Below, piece by piece: positions 51,634 to 61,286 of a stretch of DNA of 64,000 nucleotides. This DNA is from Flavobacteriales bacterium. Its GTDB lineage: Bacteria > Bacteroidota > Bacteroidia > Flavobacteriales_D > Crocinitomicaceae. The notes beneath the pieces were generated by a model. It saw nothing but the letters and a program-made list of their open reading frames with translations, did no database searches and had not been told where the DNA came from. The number at the start of each line of letters is the position of its first letter. The first letter of the stretch is position 1. A program made the translations under genes and the position numbers. The stretch is taken from assembly GCA_947449575.1 (NCBI GenBank), contig CANFRV010000003.1, forward strand, positions 62,001 to 126,000. Reading direction: 5' to 3'.

Positions 51634-52737
51634 CTAATGTCCGAAAATACGTAAAAGTTCTTGTTCCAACGCTTCACCTCTCAAATTTGTTTTTATAATT
51701 TTCCCTTCTTGATCTATTAGCACAGTGAAAGGAATGGATGTAATCTGATAAATTTTACCTGTTGCGCTTGACCAACCTTTTAGATCACTCACATGATTTG
51801 GCCAAATTAAATGATCAGATTCAATGGCGTTTTTCCATTTTCCTTTATCTTGATCAAACGAAACACTCATGACGGTAAATCCGTCTTTGTTATATTTTTC
51901 ATACATTTTAACAACGTTCGGATTTTCTTTTCGACAAGGTCCGCACCAAGATGCCCAGAAATCTAAAAGAACCACTTTACCTCTTAAGTCAGAAAGTTTT
52001 AATGTATTTCCATCTAATTTTGTGTCCGAAAAATCAGGAGCCATTTTTCCTTCCGCTAAAAAATTAGCAGCTTCTTTTTTCTCTTTTAGAGCAATAAAAT
52101 TTTTGTTAACTTCTTTTATAGTAGGTGATTCGGTAAATGATTTGACTAATTGATTAACAAGTGATTCGTAGACCGTAAATTCATTTTCTGGATTGGTGGT
52201 TGATAATGCAACAAGCAAAGCAGGCGAATTTTGATTTTGAGCTATAAATGTTTGACGAGCACTTTGAAAATTAGAATATTCTCGTTGCATCGATGTATTA
52301 ATTTCTTGAGATTTTTCGGGAGATTGTTTAAGTTCTTGACTAGCTGAAGCTTGCTTTTGATTCCATGCCGTCAACACCTTGATAAATTCATTCATGTTGA
52401 CACTTTCATCAGATCCAATAATATTAGCGTAAGATTGGATATTTGAACCATCACCATATACCTTAATATCGCATAAGTCTTTCACAATTATATTTATATG
52501 TGTATTTCCAAGTCGAAGAACATAATAATCGGGATTTGGTAATTTACCTTTAATCGTAAAATCACCTTTTTTAGAAAGGGGAACGCTCAGGAAATCAATG
52601 TAGTGTGAGCCGTAAAATTGAGATATTTTGACAGAATCTTCAGAGGTATTGAAAATGTTGCCAGAAACTGATACAGAAATTTGACTACTTCCCCAAAATG
52701 AAAGTAGTAGAGTCGTGAAAAAAAGTATTTTGTTCAT
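51634..52737 (-). CDS. TlpA-like thiol-disulfide oxidoreductase 1 (WCGPC)
   Basis: 367 aa from the ATG at 52737 (MNKILFFTTLLLSFWGSSQ, a signal peptide); the frame to 52800 adds a non-signal leader. An N-terminal DUF4369-like beta domain (about 20-110), a helical middle, and a C-terminal AhpC/TSA-thioredoxin domain with WASWCGPCRKENPN at about 260-266 and the cis-Pro loop TSIPFTVLID. It probably reduces disulfides in the periplasm, like ResA/TlpA. The next gene is a clear paralogue in tandem. Confidence 0.9.
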   Translation of the reverse strand: MNKILFFTTLLLSFWGSSQISVSVSGNIFNTSEDSVKISQFYGSHYIDFLSVPLSKKGDFTIKGKLPNPDYYVLRLGNTHINIIVKDLCDIKVYGDGSNIQSYANIIGSDESVNMNEFIKVLTAWNQKQASASQELKQSPEKSQEINTSMQREYSNFQSARQTFIAQNQNSPALLVALSTTNPENEFTVYESLVNQLVKSFTESPTIKEVNKNFIALKEKKEAANFLAEGKMAPDFSDTKLDGNTLKLSDLRGKVVLLDFWASWCGPCRKENPNVVKMYEKYNKDGFTVMSVSFDQDKGKWKNAIESDHLIWPNHVSDLKGWSSATGKIYQITSIPFTVLIDQEGKIIKTNLRGEALEQELLRIFGH

Positions 52738-52823
52738 ATGATTTTTATTGTTTTTAGTAGAAATACACACTTCATTTTTAGTAATTTCAGTTCTTTTCAT
52801 GACTGTATTTCTTTGACTTACTA

Positions 52824-53999
52824 TTAATTTTTGATCAGTTCCTTCAATTTTTGTTCCAAAGATTCTCCACGTAATCCAGTTTCAATTATTTTCCCTTCCT
52901 TGTCAACCAAAACAGTGTGGGGAATACTTTGGAAACCATATAGATTTGGCATGCTCGATTCCCATCCAGAAAGCTCACTTACATGATTAGGCCAAACTAA
53001 TCCATCTTCTTTGATAGCATTTTTCCACACTGCAACATCGCTATCGAGAGATACTGACATTATTGTAAATCCTTTGTCTTTATACTGATTATATAATCTC
53101 ACAACATTTGGATTTTCATGCCGACATGGAGAGCACCAAGAAGCCCAAAAATCAATTAGAACATATTTTCCTCTCAAGGAAGATAGTTTCATTTCAACAC
53201 CATCTGGATTTTTTAATGCGATTTCAGGAGCTTCTGTTTTTCCAGCATTAAGTGTTTTGTATTGATTATAGTTGTTTTCTATTACTTGTACTTGTTGTAC
53301 CAGATTTGTTGCAATAGGAGAGTTTTTATATCTATTTGCATACGCAGCACTCATTTTCTGCAAGGCAAAAAGGTTTTGAACGTTCCAATCTTTAAAGCCC
53401 ATATTAGGCGCTAGAAAGGACGTTAAAATGAAATTCAAGGGATTACTTGGTTCATTATTCACTGTTTCAACACAAAAAAGCTCAATTGGTTTCCTAAAGG
53501 ATAAATATTGTTTCAATAAAACATCATCTGTAACCTTGTCTTTTAAGGTGGCTAAACTTTCTTGTTTTGAAGCAAAATCGGAAAAAAGTGAAATGTATTT
53601 TGTTAGGCTTTCAGACCATTCTGTATTTGTAAACACAGGTGAAAATTGATAATTTTCGAAGGTTGTTGTTAGTATAACATTATCTTTTGGTACCAATGGT
53701 AAGGTGATAATTTTTGTTTGACTTTCACCTAAGCGAAGTTGAAATATTCCCATGTCTGGAATGTTACTAAGCATTTCAAAATGCCCTTTGTCATCCGTTA
53801 CACATTTTGCCACTTCAATTGTACCTTGTTGACTCATTGCTTCAAGATATAAATGAACATTTACAGCTCCTTCTATTACCCCACTTATTTTAAAGTTTTC
53901 AATGATATTTGTGTCAGGATTATCTTGAATCGGTCCATTATCATCTCCACATGAAAATAGTACGAATAAAAGTGTACTTAAAATGAAAATAATTTTCAT
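52824..53999 (-). CDS. TlpA-like thiol-disulfide oxidoreductase 2 (WCSPC), lipoprotein
   Basis: 391 aa. The N-terminus MKIIFILSTLLFVLFSC is a lipoprotein signal, so this paralogue is membrane-anchored, in contrast to its neighbour. It has the same plan: DUF4369-like N-terminal domain, helical middle, and thioredoxin-like domain with WASWCSPCRHENPN at about 283-296 and QSIPHTVLVD. The active-site dipeptide Ser-Pro instead of Gly-Pro will alter redox potential. It is 11 nt downstream of gatB and probably shares its transcript. Confidence 0.9.
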   Translation of the reverse strand: MKIIFILSTLLFVLFSCGDDNGPIQDNPDTNIIENFKISGVIEGAVNVHLYLEAMSQQGTIEVAKCVTDDKGHFEMLSNIPDMGIFQLRLGESQTKIITLPLVPKDNVILTTTFENYQFSPVFTNTEWSESLTKYISLFSDFASKQESLATLKDKVTDDVLLKQYLSFRKPIELFCVETVNNEPSNPLNFILTSFLAPNMGFKDWNVQNLFALQKMSAAYANRYKNSPIATNLVQQVQVIENNYNQYKTLNAGKTEAPEIALKNPDGVEMKLSSLRGKYVLIDFWASWCSPCRHENPNVVRLYNQYKDKGFTIMSVSLDSDVAVWKNAIKEDGLVWPNHVSELSGWESSMPNLYGFQSIPHTVLVDKEGKIIETGLRGESLEQKLKELIKN

Positions 54000-55473: not shown

Positions 55474-56286
55474 CTATAAACGTGAAATCAGTTGACTCAT
55501 TATTAATGTCATTTTTGGCTCTTGGCGAGATGCTACATCAATCACATCTTGTAAACTTACTTTATGTATTTTTCCAGGTACGCCCAAATCTGTTATGATT
55601 GAGATAGCAAAACAAGGAATGGACATGTGACGGGCAACGATGATTTCCGGAACAGTAGACATTCCTACCGCATCCGCTCCAATTGCTCTCACGTATCCGT
55701 ATTCAGCAGGAGTTTCTAATGTTGGTCCTGTTAAACCAGCGTATGTTCCAACGGATACTTTAATATTATTTTCTTTTGCAATTGTTTGTGCCAATTCAAT
55801 CATTTCTGTATCATACGCATCACTCATGTCAGGGAAACGAGGACCTAATTCATCAAAGTTTTTACCGATTAATGGATGAGCTGGAAATAGATTGATGTGA
55901 TCATCTTGAATCATTATTTCTCCCACTTCAAAATCAGGATTAACACCACCAGAAGCATTTGAAACAAACAAACGTTCAATTCCTAATAATTTCATTACTC
56001 GCACTGGATACGTAACTTGTTGCATATTGTATCCTTCATAAAAATGAAAACGACCTTGCATAGCAACCACTTTTTTACCGCCTAATTCTCCAAAAATTAA
56101 TTTTCCAGAGTGACTTTCAACGGTAGAAACAGGAAAATGAGGGATATCCTTGTAATCGATTTCATCAATAACTTTAATTTCTTTTACTAAACCTCCTAAT
56201 CCGGTACCTAATATTATTCCTATCGTAGGTTGCACAGAAGTTTTTGATTGTATAAAACTTGCAGATTCTTTAAATTGAGTTAACAT
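55474..56286 (-). CDS. Purine-nucleoside phosphorylase
   Basis: 270 aa, trimeric class PNP. GIILGTGLGGLVKEI at about 24, PHFPVSTVESHSGKLIFGEL, VSNASGGVNPDFEVGEIMI, and AVGMSTVPEIIVARH (phosphate/purine site) match the inosine-guanosine family. It cleaves purine nucleosides with phosphate for salvage. It overlaps the end of lpxK by 17 nt and is followed at 2 nt by gatB, so the three genes look like one operon. Confidence 0.94.
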   Translation of the reverse strand: MLTQFKESASFIQSKTSVQPTIGIILGTGLGGLVKEIKVIDEIDYKDIPHFPVSTVESHSGKLIFGELGGKKVVAMQGRFHFYEGYNMQQVTYPVRVMKLLGIERLFVSNASGGVNPDFEVGEIMIQDDHINLFPAHPLIGKNFDELGPRFPDMSDAYDTEMIELAQTIAKENNIKVSVGTYAGLTGPTLETPAEYGYVRAIGADAVGMSTVPEIIVARHMSIPCFAISIITDLGVPGKIHKVSLQDVIDVASRQEPKMTLIMSQLISRL

Positions 56287-57301
56287 ATTGCATTATTAAT
56301 TTGTTAAAAATATATTTATTATCTATTTCGACTTCTATTGTTTGATAGAGCCATGGGTATTCTTTAATGTTTGTATTGTCTGACATTTCAGATAATCGCA
56401 TATAATCTTTTTCCGTCGTGACAATTGCACTTGAATCCGCTGCAAAAGTATCAAATTTTTGGTGAATTCTTTCTATATCTTGAATGCTAAAAATATGATG
56501 ATCAGGAAATGAAATCGTTTCTACAGTATATCGCTTCTGTAATTCGAGTAACAATGGTGTATAATTGGCAATACCAGTGACTAATAGAATATTATTTAAG
56601 TCTGGATTTATTGGTTTTCCAAAGGGAATTAAATCACCGTAAATAATGGAAGAAAAGAATATTTTTTCTTTATTAAATCGTAGACTTTTTATTACACGTA
56701 ATTTATCAGTTTCAGAGATGTTTTGTGGGCATTTTGTGACGATCACATAATCCGCCCTTTTTTTACTTGATTTCCATTCTCTTAAATTTCCTGCAGGAAG
56801 AACAAAGTCGTTTGAAAATAGGGCCGAATAATCCGTTAAAAGAATGTTCAATCCAGCTTTTACAGCTCTGTGTTGAAATGCATCATCTAAAATTATGAGG
56901 TTATTTTCAGGAAATAACGCTTGAATTTTTTGAACGCCTTCAACTCTTTTTTCACATACAACCACATTAATTTGAGGAAAAAAACGGGAAATATATAACT
57001 TCGGTTCATCTCCTATTTCCGTATCAGATGAAGTTTTAGATCCAAGCAAAAAACCCTTCGTTTTTCTACCATAGCCTCTGCTAAGTATTGTTATCTTTTG
57101 AGTATCTTTCAATAAACTTGCTAAATAGGCTACATGAGGTGTTTTTCCCGTACCTCCAACAGAGAGATTTCCGATGCAAATCGATTTTTTTGGTATTAAG
57201 TAGGATTGACGTATTCCTAGATCAAAAAGTAAATTTCTACAGTAGGTAATTATCCCATAAATCCAAGCAAAAGGCAATAAGAGTAATCTCACATGTTGCA
57301 T
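56270..57301 (-). CDS. lpxK: Tetraacyldisaccharide 4'-kinase LpxK
   Basis: 343 aa. N-terminal membrane helix (LLLPFAWIYGIITYCRNLLF) followed by the P-loop IGNLSVGGTGKTPHVAYLA at about 44-62, SRGYGRKTKG, and DDAFQHRAVKAGLNILL. It adds the 4'-phosphate of lipid A at the inner membrane. A TATCTTTG -7 box lies 4 nt upstream of the ATG, suggesting a leaderless message. The 17-nt overlap with the next gene links lipid A synthesis to purine salvage in one transcript, probably by chance of gene order. Confidence 0.95.
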   Translation of the reverse strand: MQHVRLLLLPFAWIYGIITYCRNLLFDLGIRQSYLIPKKSICIGNLSVGGTGKTPHVAYLASLLKDTQKITILSRGYGRKTKGFLLGSKTSSDTEIGDEPKLYISRFFPQINVVVCEKRVEGVQKIQALFPENNLIILDDAFQHRAVKAGLNILLTDYSALFSNDFVLPAGNLREWKSSKKRADYVIVTKCPQNISETDKLRVIKSLRFNKEKIFFSSIIYGDLIPFGKPINPDLNNILLVTGIANYTPLLLELQKRYTVETISFPDHHIFSIQDIERIHQKFDTFAADSSAIVTTEKDYMRLSEMSDNTNIKEYPWLYQTIEVEIDNKYIFNKLIMQYVNSI

Positions 57302-57436: not shown

Positions 57437-57468
57437 ATTGGGCTGTCGCATGACCTCGCGTACATTTG
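57437..57468 (+). promoter_or_regulatory. Putative promoter of the kaiC-kaiB cassette
   Basis: ATTG at 57437-57440 and TACATTTG at 57461-57468, spacer 20 nt, match the Bacteroidota -33/-7 pattern. The -7 box ends 64 nt before the kaiC ATG. The spacer is notably GC-rich for this genome (GGCTGTCGCATGACCTCGCG). Confidence 0.6.
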
Positions 57469-57532
57469 GGTAAATCAGCATTTGCTCATTAATTTCTTAT
57501 GAATAGGAAAAAAAAACTAAAAAATAAAGGTG

Positions 57533-59107
57533 ATGGACGAAATACTTGAAAATAAGGAATTGGACGATTGTAAAACTATCAAAACAGTTTTACCTAAAAC
57601 ATTAACAGGAATAAATGGTTTAGATGATATTACACTTGGAGGAATTCCGAAAAACCGCACTACTTTGCTTGTTGGGGCAATTGGGGCGGGAAAAACAGTG
57701 TTATCAATGGCATTTATTGTTAATGGAATTCTTAAATATAATGAGCCAGGTGTTTTTATGACATTTGAGGAAAAAGCAGATGAACTACAAATAAATTTGT
57801 TAACTCTTGGATATGATTTAGCAACTCTTATTTCAGACAAGAAATTATATTTAGAAAATTTATACATAGGGAATGAAGGGATACAAGTAACTGGTAAATA
57901 TAACATTGAAGGTCTATTTGTAAGGATTGAGCAAGCAATTGAAAAGGTAAAAGCAAAACGAATTGTGCTTGACTCTTTGGATACGCTCTTTTCAGGATTG
58001 GATAGTAATATTTTAAGGGGAGAAATAAAAAGACTATTTACATGGTTGAAAGAAAAAGAAATAACTGCAATAATCACTGGAGAAATTGGTGAAACACATC
58101 TGACACGTATGGGAATCGAAGAGGCAATCGCAGATTGTGTAATCGAGCTAAATAATCGTGTTTGTAACCAAATTTCAACAAGAAGGATGCGGGTTGTAAA
58201 ATACAGAGGGTCAGATCATAGTACAAATGAGTATCCTTTTGTAATTAACAGCAAGGGAATCATTATTTATCCAATAATAGATGAAGAGCCTCAGCAAGAA
58301 GCGAGCAGAGAAAGAATTTCAACGGGTATTTTTCAGTTAGATCAAATGTTGGAAAATAAGGGGTACTATGTTGGAAGTAGTATTCTCATTGCTGGAGCAG
58401 CAGGGACTGGTAAAACAAGTCTTGCGGCATCTTTTGCTGCTAGTGTTTGTAAAAATAATAAACGCTGTTTATATTGTTCTTTTGAAGAGTCGCCAAATCA
58501 GTTAATAAGAGATATGGGCACCATTGGTTTTCCATTGGAATCATACGTTAATTCAGAAAATTTAAAGTTTTATTTTGCTAGACCCACTCTACAAAATTTC
58601 GAATTGCATATCATGTCAATAAAATCAAAAATAAAAGAATTTAAACCGGATGTTATTATCATGGATCCAATTACAAATATTATGGTGGAAAGCATTAATA
58701 GTGATACTACAGCCACGCTCAATCATTTTATTGATTTTGTGAAGATGGAGAAAAACATAACAATACTTTTTACGTCAGCGATGACCACAGAGGTATTATT
58801 GATAAATCCGAGTTATGAAGCTATTTTTTCCATGGTAGATACATGTATAATGCTACAGGAGAGAAGAATAGAAATGATTCACGTGCGGAGTTTGTTTATT
58901 ATGAAATCCCGAGGAATCAATAATTCGAAGGAGGAAAAGGAATTTTTGATTTCGGCGAAGGAAAATATTGTTCTTCCCAATTCCAGGATGGTGATAGCTG
59001 AAAATGGAATCGCTCAAAAGTCCCAAATGAATTCAACTGAAAATAGCGTCATCTTACAACCGAATTTGATTTCAATTATAGGCAATGGACATAGCGAAAG
59101 GAAATAA
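57533..59107 (+). CDS. kaiC: KaiC-like double RecA-domain ATPase
   Basis: 524 aa, close to cyanobacterial KaiC (519 aa). Two RecA-like domains in tandem: CI with Walker A GAIGAGKT (48-55), catalytic Glu pair FMTFEE (79-80) and LDSLDTLF; CII with Walker A GAAGTGKT (288-295), Glu pair CSFEES (318-319) and IMDPITNI. At the place of the cyanobacterial phosphosites Ser431/Thr432 I align Phe432-Ser433 (IFSMVDT), so only one hydroxyl residue is present. The ATG at 57533 is used; a GTG precedes it directly. kaiB follows 29 nt downstream. No kaiA, sasA-like kinase or response regulator is adjacent. Confidence 0.93.
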   Translation: MDEILENKELDDCKTIKTVLPKTLTGINGLDDITLGGIPKNRTTLLVGAIGAGKTVLSMAFIVNGILKYNEPGVFMTFEEKADELQINLLTLGYDLATLISDKKLYLENLYIGNEGIQVTGKYNIEGLFVRIEQAIEKVKAKRIVLDSLDTLFSGLDSNILRGEIKRLFTWLKEKEITAIITGEIGETHLTRMGIEEAIADCVIELNNRVCNQISTRRMRVVKYRGSDHSTNEYPFVINSKGIIIYPIIDEEPQQEASRERISTGIFQLDQMLENKGYYVGSSILIAGAAGTGKTSLAASFAASVCKNNKRCLYCSFEESPNQLIRDMGTIGFPLESYVNSENLKFYFARPTLQNFELHIMSIKSKIKEFKPDVIIMDPITNIMVESINSDTTATLNHFIDFVKMEKNITILFTSAMTTEVLLINPSYEAIFSMVDTCIMLQERRIEMIHVRSLFIMKSRGINNSKEEKEFLISAKENIVLPNSRMVIAENGIAQKSQMNSTENSVILQPNLISIIGNGHSERK

Positions 59108-59136
59108 TAATTTAAAATTAATAAAAACGCATACCT

Positions 59137-59451
59137 ATGGAAATCCAAGGAAAAGAAGCTACAAATTCTGATATAGACATTACTGAAAAATATGTTTTTA
59201 GATTATTTATTTCAAAAAAATCACCTGATTCTCTGTATGTGGTGAAAAATATTCAAAAATTTTGCAATCAATATTTACATGAGAACTATGAATTAGAAGT
59301 GGTTGATATATACGAAAAGCCTGATTTAGTAATTGAAGAGCAAATAATTCTAACTCCTTTATTAATAAAAAAATATCCATTACCAGAAGAGCGAATAAGT
59401 GGGGATTTAAAAAATTCGCAAGCAATTCTTTCCCAATTTCATATCGATTAA
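59137..59451 (+). CDS. kaiB: KaiB-like thioredoxin-fold clock protein
   Basis: 104 aa. KYVFRLFISKKSPDSLYVVK, NYELEVVDIYEKPDLVIEEQ and TPLLIKKYPLPEERISGDL are the KaiB signature; the last holds the cis-Pro and GDL ends typical of the fold-switching C-terminal half. KaiB binds the CI ring of KaiC in its switched state. It is 29 nt after kaiC and 13 nt before the next gene. The N-terminal ~17 residues are polar and extra. Confidence 0.92.
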   Translation: MEIQGKEATNSDIDITEKYVFRLFISKKSPDSLYVVKNIQKFCNQYLHENYELEVVDIYEKPDLVIEEQIILTPLLIKKYPLPEERISGDLKNSQAILSQFHID

Positions 59452-59464
59452 TTAAAATAAAGCC

Positions 59465-59911
59465 ATGGAAAAAAATTATAATAAAGAGTTAGATTTTGTC
59501 TTGGAAGAACTTATTTCCGAATATGAAAAGCAATTTAAGGGAATAAAATTCTATGCCGATGAAGCTCCTAAAATCGTTAATGAAGAGGTTAGAAAAAAAA
59601 CCGAAAGTACATTTAATTTAAAAGATTGGGAGGTAAATTTGTTGTACCATCAGTTATTGGTCGATCAGAATATTGTTAGTATCGAACCACTCGTTATTTC
59701 GCTGGGAGGACTTTTATTCAAACATAATGGTGGATATACGCAAAGAGATTTAGATGTGAATTCAGAAAAGTTACGTATCAAAAATCTCGAGGAAGAAATG
59801 CGCCGAAATTCCTTGTGGTTAATGCTATTTACGGCCTTGTTAGCTATAGGTACAGCAGTTGGAGCTTGGGATTTTGCTATTGAAATTTGGCAGTTTTACC
59901 ATGTTCCTTAA
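59465..59911 (+). CDS. Small membrane-anchored protein of the kaiBC cassette
   Basis: 148 aa. The N-terminal ~100 residues are soluble; the part around residues 60-98 (LKDWEVNLLYHQLLVDQNIV, then PLVISLGGLLFKHNGGYTQR) has the helix-turn-strand look of a small winged-helix, ending in the GGY often seen in Bacteroidota hypotheticals. A charged helix (KLRIKNLEEEMRRNS) leads to one transmembrane segment at about 118-140 (WLMLFTALLAIGTAVGAWDF). It is 13 nt after kaiB, so it is probably translated with it. I do not recognise the family. A role as membrane partner or output of KaiBC is inference from position. Confidence 0.75.
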   Translation: MEKNYNKELDFVLEELISEYEKQFKGIKFYADEAPKIVNEEVRKKTESTFNLKDWEVNLLYHQLLVDQNIVSIEPLVISLGGLLFKHNGGYTQRDLDVNSEKLRIKNLEEEMRRNSLWLMLFTALLAIGTAVGAWDFAIEIWQFYHVP

Positions 59912-59957: not shown

Positions 59958-61286
59958 TTATACGACCTTCTTTTTCCAATCAAATAAGCGCAAGTATCCA
60001 ATAGAAAGAATACCCATACATCCAAAGTATATATATTCAACGGACCAAATCCAATAAATATCTAGTTTTAATATTTTGATAAAAATATAGGAGACCACTA
60101 AATATACAAGTACGCAAATTACTTCAATTATAAAAGTGACCATTGTATTTCCGCTCCCATTGATTGTTTGGAAGTATACACTGATAAAACCAAATAGGAG
60201 GGTAGAGACAGAAATTAATCGAAGGATTTCAGCACTTTTTTGAACGTATTCTTTGGATGGATTGATGACGGAAATTAAATATGTTGGATAAAATGTAGCA
60301 CCTAAAACGATAACAGACAGAAAAATCATGGTGAGTAGCTGAACTCTTCGTTGAATTATTTTTAATGATTTGAAATCTTTTTTTCCTATGTATTGAGAAA
60401 TATAGGTTTTCGTGGTGGCAGAAAACCCCCAGATGGGGATGAAGGCTAAAAAATAAATTGCTCTAATGTTTTGAGAAACAGTTAGTTCAAATTTTCCGAT
60501 TTGTTCAATCCACGTGAAGAAAATGGTCCATGTGGAAAGAGCAATCAATCCTTGAAACATAATTGGACTGCCCACGCGAATCAATTCTTTAAAGGAATCC
60601 AAATTGAAAGAAAAATGAGCAAATAGTGCATATTCTTTTCTTATTTTGCTGAAAATCAAAAAACTCACTAAAAACAGCATACCCAAACCGTCTGCTAAGG
60701 TCGATGCTAAAGCGGCTCCTTCTAATCCCATTTCAGGAAAAGAAAATTTCCCAAAAATCAATAAATAATCCAAGATTACGTTGGATGAGGCGGTGATTAT
60801 CGCACTTACTAAAACAATCCACGTTTTCCCTGTAGCAAAGAAGAATGCTTGAATGGAAAGTGAAATCATCGCAAAAAAGAGAGCATAACTTCTAATTGAT
60901 ATAAACTGATTTTGTGCAAAGGCTAAATCTGGGTGTTTCGAATAGCCCGTCAAAAGTGAAGGAAAAATAAGCTGGAGAAAGAGAAAGAGTACAATTGCAA
61001 GTGCGCAATGTGTTAAAATGGAAGTCCCGAAAATTCGTCCAATTGCGCCTAAATTTTTCTGACCTATTCTTCGTGCGATTAATATTTGAGCTCCATCACT
61101 CATTCCAGCAATGGCTAAAAACATGGTGACATAAATTAAACCTCCATTTCCTGCTGCATCAAATGAAAGGGTACTGTATCTGCTTAAAAATGCAGTATCT
61201 GTTAATAAAACAATCGATTGAATAAAGCTCGAAACCATTAGAGGTAGAGCAACACTTAAAATTGTTTTATAGCGCAGATCAAGCAT
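59958..61286 (-). CDS. MATE family efflux transporter
   Basis: 442 aa with about twelve membrane helices in two homologous halves. LPLMVSSFIQSIVLLTDTAF near the N-terminus, GLIYVTMFLAIAGMSDGAQI, and GSPIMFQGLIALSTWTIFFT at the start of the second half match MATE transporters. It exports cationic drugs or metabolites by H+ or Na+ antiport; specificity cannot be told. It overlaps the upstream RlmI-like gene by 1 nt and is convergent with the kai cassette. Confidence 0.9.
   Translation of the reverse strand: MLDLRYKTILSVALPLMVSSFIQSIVLLTDTAFLSRYSTLSFDAAGNGGLIYVTMFLAIAGMSDGAQILIARRIGQKNLGAIGRIFGTSILTHCALAIVLFLFLQLIFPSLLTGYSKHPDLAFAQNQFISIRSYALFFAMISLSIQAFFFATGKTWIVLVSAIITASSNVILDYLLIFGKFSFPEMGLEGAALASTLADGLGMLFLVSFLIFSKIRKEYALFAHFSFNLDSFKELIRVGSPIMFQGLIALSTWTIFFTWIEQIGKFELTVSQNIRAIYFLAFIPIWGFSATTKTYISQYIGKKDFKSLKIIQRRVQLLTMIFLSVIVLGATFYPTYLISVINPSKEYVQKSAEILRLISVSTLLFGFISVYFQTINGSGNTMVTFIIEVICVLVYLVVSYIFIKILKLDIYWIWSVEYIYFGCMGILSIGYLRLFDWKKKVV

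Follow-up and report, generated by a model that had tools for sequence, protein, structure and literature searches.

The best solved relative of the KaiC described here belongs to the KaiBC pair of Rhodobacter sphaeroides (8DBA, 8FWJ; E 1.6e-116). In the available part of its description, the C-terminal extension of that KaiC is a coiled coil joining two hexamers, termed an ancient regulatory moiety, and phosphorylation continues largely as before in its absence (PMC10076222). The present locus lies in the window, i.e., the whole 64,000-nucleotide stretch of DNA analysed, and resembles the Rhodobacter system, as far as that available text goes, in combining KaiC with KaiB in the absence of KaiA and with the ATP-site motifs in place (PMC10076222). 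In contrast to the Rhodobacter KaiC, for which the same text gives the extension and the serines S413 and S414, the window's KaiC lacks the extension, carries F432-S433 at the equivalent position, and has a membrane protein gene alongside. Bacteroidetes with KaiB2 and KaiC2 only have also been reported, and KaiC2 proteins show two serines at the phosphosite, according to the accessible portion of PMC5520375. The KaiCs compared here agree with this group in their Ser-Ser phosphosite (24 of 26 aligned sequences); unlike the group as characterized in that portion, the clade containing the window's KaiC is marked by a third gene and a short KaiC and frequently lacks KaiB, and the window itself reads Phe-Ser. 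A further point of reference is the Bacteroidota operon kaiC-kaiB-kaiB-PAS/histidine kinase (L030, L031, L034), which shares a homologous KaiC with KaiB behind it, whereas the clade has one KaiB or none and a membrane protein gene in the place of the second kaiB and the kinase.

The three genes are arranged head to tail on the plus strand, and the third begins 13 nt past the kaiB stop (Table 1). Their order, coordinates and spacing in a Bacteroidota genome, as given in a preliminary description of this DNA, are all confirmed from the open reading frames. The kaiC start is the ATG at 57533, with a GTG in frame one codon upstream. The cassette is flanked by two minus-strand genes, which we take from their protein sequences to be an lpxK-like gene (56270-57301) and a MATE-type transporter gene (59958-61286). 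Further upstream, at 51634-53999, two neighbouring minus-strand genes encode thioredoxin-like proteins in which the motifs WCGPC and WCSPC can be seen by eye. No foreign base composition is apparent, the GC content being 0.325 for the cassette versus 0.335 for the window. The promoter that the preliminary description assigned to the cassette stands only in part: TTGG-19-TACATTTG is present and TACATTTG also occurs, by eye, upstream of kaiC in locus L011, but an equally good match arises in 44 of 300 shuffles. The reported absence of kaiA and of a SasA-type kinase beside kaiBC is borne out on a wider scale, since KaiA gives no match anywhere in the window's genome, with a positive control detected in Synechococcus elongatus, so that the kaiA of a KaiABC oscillator was not found. 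The genome search returns a single KaiB-domain gene, which leaves no gene for a SasA-type kinase in which a KaiB domain can be recognised.

Table 1. Features of the kaiC-kaiB-third gene cassette, in window coordinates.
Feature	Position	Strand	Basis
Putative promoter, TTGG-19-TACATTTG	57438..57468	+	One mismatch to Bacteroidota consensus
kaiC, double-domain KaiC2-type ATPase, 524 aa, without long C-terminal extension	57533..59107	+	ORF, Pfam, NCBIfam, alignment, length comparison
CI Walker A, residues 48-55 (GAIGAGKT)	57674..57697	+	KaiC alignment
CII Walker A, residues 288-295 (GAAGTGKT)	58394..58417	+	KaiC alignment
Phosphosite pair F432-S433, replacing Ser-Ser	58826..58831	+	KaiC alignment
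kaiB, 104 aa, apart from first-type KaiB of other Bacteroidota in tree	59137..59451	+	ORF, Pfam, model, tree
Third gene, KaiC-linked membrane protein, 148 aa	59465..59911	+	ORF, locus comparison, tree
Cytosolic part of third protein, residues 1-93, winged-helix-like in model (weak)	59465..59743	+	Predicted structure, structural search, charge
TM-like span of third protein, residues 116-134	59810..59866	+	Hydrophobic-span scan

The KaiC protein shows two Pfam KaiC ATPase domains (PF06745, E 2.8e-94), passes the NF006799 model "circadian clock protein KaiC" (534 bits, cut-off 408), and possesses a Walker A motif and a Glu pair in both domains, as expected of a double-domain KaiC; its score against the cyanobacterial-type model TIGR02655 is 287.6, below the cut-off of 546.25. 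A PADLOC search for anti-phage systems yields ATPase-type matches for this protein, the best being mad8 (E 1.5e-14). The Walker A lysines K54 and K294 and the Glu pairs E79/E80 and E318/E319 are invariant across the 26 aligned KaiCs (the truncated genes of L012 and L029 being left out, and the L011 row beginning 6 codons late), in agreement with the earlier reading of both ATP sites and both Glu pairs as intact. The designation KaiC2-type follows the description in the accessible portion of PMC5520375, the KaiC tree having been built without cyanobacterial KaiC1, KaiC2 or KaiC3 references, and the window's KaiC departs from the two serines of that type. Phenylalanine occupies the first phosphosite position in only two aligned sequences, those of the window and L011; a two-site phosphorylation cycle at the usual residues is therefore not available, and the window's KaiC would keep no more than one of these two phosphosites.

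The lack of a Rhodobacter-type coiled-coil extension is common to the whole clade: KaiC does not exceed 532 aa in all 23 clade rows and reaches at least 557 aa in 30 of 32 others, L031 and L032 being the exceptions (L051 and L075, of a far KaiC type, are excluded here and from the CII comparison, which also omits L032). Within CII, the mean pairwise identity of residues 361-440 is 0.71-0.77 in the clade and 0.77-0.83 among its Chitinophagaceae rows, compared with 0.54 outside the clade, whereas for residues 441-478 it is 0.52 in the clade vs 0.73 outside. This higher conservation does not extend to the window's KaiC, whose residues 361-440 are 0.50-0.52 identical to the Chitinophagaceae rows.

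A KaiC search of genome contigs provides 27 loci for comparison, and the third gene is found behind kaiC(-kaiB) in 22 of these. In the remaining five, the contig stops inside kaiC (L012) or the third gene is absent (L030, L031, L032 and L034), so that it is present in all 22 clade loci in which its place is readable. The preliminary description had regarded the link as chance should the third gene not be conserved beside kaiBC in relatives; the opposite is observed, and kaiC, kaiB and the third gene form a linked set of long standing. Flanking genes differ among the loci, except within groups of near-identical ones. In the KaiC tree (58 sequences), all third-gene KaiCs form one clade of 24 rows, including the truncated L012, with support of 100/100 and a branch of 1.01, and the third gene requires a single label change. 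A chance neighbourhood is thereby ruled out, and the pairing of KaiC with the third gene has a single origin on this tree. In one locus (L036, 6899-7339, identical to L080), an in-frame stop interrupts the third gene, with kaiC and kaiB intact, which reflects decay or an assembly error; this sequence was left out of the third-protein alignment.

In a phylum sample, KaiC exceeds the cut-off in 42 of 395 genomes, and 30 loci were taken for comparison. None of them contains the third gene; two KaiBs adjoin KaiC in 17, one in 4, and none is found within the fetched flank in 9 (L057, L059-L062, L065, L067, L072 and L074, all non-clade Bacteroidota KaiCs). In L057, kaiC is followed by an ORF for a 5TM/PAS protein, and in L065 and L074 by one for an MlaE permease. 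Hence, KaiCs outside the clade can also lack a neighbouring KaiB, but the third gene is confined to the clade in the loci sampled. Outside the clade, where ten ORFs behind KaiC were scanned among 34 loci, the sampled Bacteroidota most often show the order kaiC-kaiB-kaiB, and a PAS/histidine kinase comes next where the reading extends that far: in all four fully read cases (L030, L031, L032 and L034) the kinase is present, and three partial ORFs behind kaiC-kaiB-kaiB carry PAS, one of them HisKA as well. The clade loci have neither the first-type KaiB nor the adjacent kinase. L031 and L032 combine a KaiC without the long extension with kaiB-kaiB-kinase and no third gene; L032 derives from a Candidatus Omnitrophota record, and its KaiC falls among Bacteroidota rows on a long branch.

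KaiB behaves differently from the third gene across the clade. In 6 of the 22 loci (L015, L019, L020, L023, L028 and L029), the third gene comes next after kaiC, with no kaiB in between and no KaiB remnant detectable (best tblastn E 0.24), and an assembly search covering 12 of the 27 assemblies gives no KaiB match elsewhere in the six kaiB-less assemblies, nor any in that of L012. All six lie on draft contigs, most of them from MAGs. The AU test rejects a grouping of the kaiB-less loci into one clade (p-AU 2.5e-9), and KaiB presence changes at least four times within the clade. The change counts give no direction; loss is considered likelier than gain because the clade KaiBs form one group (support 98/98 in a KaiB tree of 109 columns). 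In the same tree, the first-type KaiBs form another group (99/92), and the clade KaiBs join some second-type KaiBs weakly (80/70). In the sampled relatives, the third gene is the constant partner of kaiC and KaiB the dispensable one. Both points escaped the preliminary description, as did the separation of this KaiB from the first type, the absent KaiC extension and the phenylalanine at the first phosphosite.

The window's KaiB itself passes Pfam KaiB (71.1 bits, cut-off 27, E 6.4e-20) and falls below both NCBIfam circadian KaiB cut-offs (48.9 of 110 and 46.8 of 145.3). Its model (pLDDT 85.9) is thioredoxin-like, and the nearest structures are Legionella KaiB and fold-switched, KaiC-bound KaiB; the nearest solved structure is Lpp1115 of Legionella pneumophila (4KUN, E 1.8e-8, 36%). 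Judging from this model, the window's KaiB may still be able to bind CI. The retention of KaiB in 16 of the 22 third-gene loci, the window among them, its resemblance in the model to KaiC-bound KaiB, and the intact ATP-site motifs of KaiC are what would be expected of an hourglass-type KaiBC timer as in Rhodobacter, with KaiB as the functional partner and the third protein as an accessory anchor. We regard this alternative as rather unlikely, taking into account that six assemblies in separate lineages lack KaiB and still contain the third gene, that kaiB shows the weakest constraint among the three genes in the pairs analysed, and that the first phosphosite of the window is Phe.

The difference in constraint is evident from dN/dS values. 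By the NG86 method, three close pairs give 0.035, 0.059 and 0.083 for the third gene and 0.27, 0.16 and 0.21 for kaiB, and the one pair tested for kaiC gives 0.087. The third gene is thus under purifying selection, and it is more constrained than kaiB by NG86 and YN00 wherever both methods gave values. That it is as constrained as kaiC is not firm, as YN00 gives 0.196 for the third gene vs 0.104 for kaiC in the last pair. For the pair of window and L011, kaiC and the third gene both give saturated dN/dS values; the identities are 82% for the third protein, 75% for KaiC and 60% for KaiB.

All 22 members of the third-protein group carry a single TM-like span, consistent with the small membrane-anchored protein named in the preliminary description. 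No Pfam or NCBIfam family accommodates the window's protein. Among the 22 members, Pfam gives scattered weak matches, the best being YrhC (E 0.0027); for the third protein, PADLOC gives a weak PDC-M50A match (E 0.007), and the sequences of solved structures give no match, the best being a potassium channel at E 0.19. The titles and abstract openings covered, in which subscription journals are poorly represented, name no KaiC-linked membrane protein in Bacteroidota. The predicted model (pLDDT 76.6, pTM 0.51) comprises helices 6-24, 38-50 and 54-66, a short strand, a helix at 80-87 and a long helix 90-146 that includes the TM-like span. It has no Foldseek match at E <= 0.001, and for residues ~4-93 the top structural rows are mostly MarR- and DtxR-type winged helices, with Z not exceeding 7.9, a common level (rmsd 2.2 over 68 for 3HRS). 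The model therefore hints at a winged helix joined to a long TM helix.

This resemblance raises the alternative of a DNA-binding regulator held at the membrane, in which KaiC would free or activate the winged helix of the third protein to change transcription. The structural rows, being mostly regulators of these types, favour such a role; the fold match is weak, and the third protein, unlike MarR and DtxR winged helices, has no sequence match to them, is acidic and carries one TM span. The net charge of residues 1-93 is -3 to -10 in 22 of 22 members, and that of residues 51-69 is 0 to -3. The acidity of residues 1-93 makes protein contact likelier than DNA binding, and a DNA-binding regulator is accordingly considered improbable.

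A third-gene search gives matches in 2 of 299 genomes of the order, the window's own and G141, whose match (E 1.5e-5) is taken as chance, since the ORF reads by eye as a dihydrofolate-reductase-type enzyme. The phylum sample gives 3 of 395 genomes (the window's own strong, two weak), and the family of L014 gives 10 of 294, with four strong matches (E 1e-66 to 1e-73) and six weak ones. The four strong genomes are already among the 27 loci (L014, L018, L028 and L036), and their matches adjoin kaiC; the weak homologues (E 1e-4 to 1e-12) show no kaiC within a flank of ~1.5 kb. Ten ORFs near weak homologues were scanned; in L082 (1291-1743) and L087 (1252-1725) the homologues are small, with a C-terminal hydrophobic span, and lie beside IS1595/ISXO2-type transposases rather than kaiC. 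Within the window's genus, the third gene occurs in 2 of 12 genomes. The L011 genome is probably a congener, and its cassette has flanks other than the window's, so that two congeners carry the cassette at different places. Among the compared loci, kaiC upstream of lpxK is found only in the window (none of 28 others with a readable flank, including G1008, whose lpxK is 95% identical), and MATE adjoins lpxK in none (flanks of ~1.5 kb), which leaves no clean empty site. Horizontal arrival, relocation and loss fit this history alike and cannot be told apart.

Such patchiness within the genus and the transposase neighbours of the weak homologues could be read as signs of a linked passenger without any function in the KaiC system. 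We consider this highly improbable in view of the presence of the third gene in every readable clade locus, its low dN/dS, its close spacing and the differing flanks. A functional partnership between KaiC and the third protein is, conversely, very probable.

Of 24 genomes with clade KaiCs, 14 encode a bacterial rhodopsin (PF01036), against 27 of 294 in the family sample; the window's genome has none. Rhodopsin as a light input was set aside, the counts being confounded by kinship and habitat.

Across the clade, KaiC is short, no kinase lies directly behind the genes, and the pair of KaiC and third gene is retained while KaiB presence changes repeatedly. A reading in which a KaiC2-type ATPase acts at the membrane through the third protein, with KaiB as an optional modulator, is considered, as a stated mechanism, modestly probable. 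The fixed core of the module would be KaiC, presumably an ATP-driven hexamer, and the one-TM membrane protein; its docking, location and output are what we infer as follows. The third protein would dock on KaiC through its cytosolic, winged-helix-like part, with CII, at the former start of the extension, as the likeliest site, and would thereby tether KaiC to the inner membrane. Taking over from the kinase, it would relay the state of KaiC to the membrane or take up a membrane cue, and KaiB, where present, may modulate the system by binding CI. Having lost one phosphosite serine, the KaiC of the window's lineage would be left with at most a one-site phospho-switch, and for this reason an ATPase or energy-state switch is expected there rather than a two-site oscillator.

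Several observations count against this membrane module. The window's KaiC stands outside the clade's conservation at residues 361-440, and L031 and L032 have a short KaiC in the absence of the third gene. Furthermore, KaiB is kept in most third-gene loci and, in its model, looks competent for KaiC binding; the kaiB-less loci are drafts, for the most part MAGs; the winged-helix match is weak; and the YN00 value of one pair is higher for the third gene than for kaiC.

Collectively, these findings suggest clock hardware rebuilt as a membrane-bound switch. Tentatively, and with some doubt, a former KaiBC timer may have become a two-protein membrane device, in which the third protein replaced the KaiC extension and the output kinase in trans and KaiB was then repeatedly lost. 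If the membrane module is real, KaiC would here depend on a membrane protein as its obligate partner instead of KaiB or KaiA. The constant partner is a previously undescribed protein, and relatives with and without KaiB constitute natural experiments. The role of KaiBC in heterotrophs thus becomes testable, through the binding of KaiC to the membrane protein, the presence of KaiC at the membrane, and whether KaiB is still needed.
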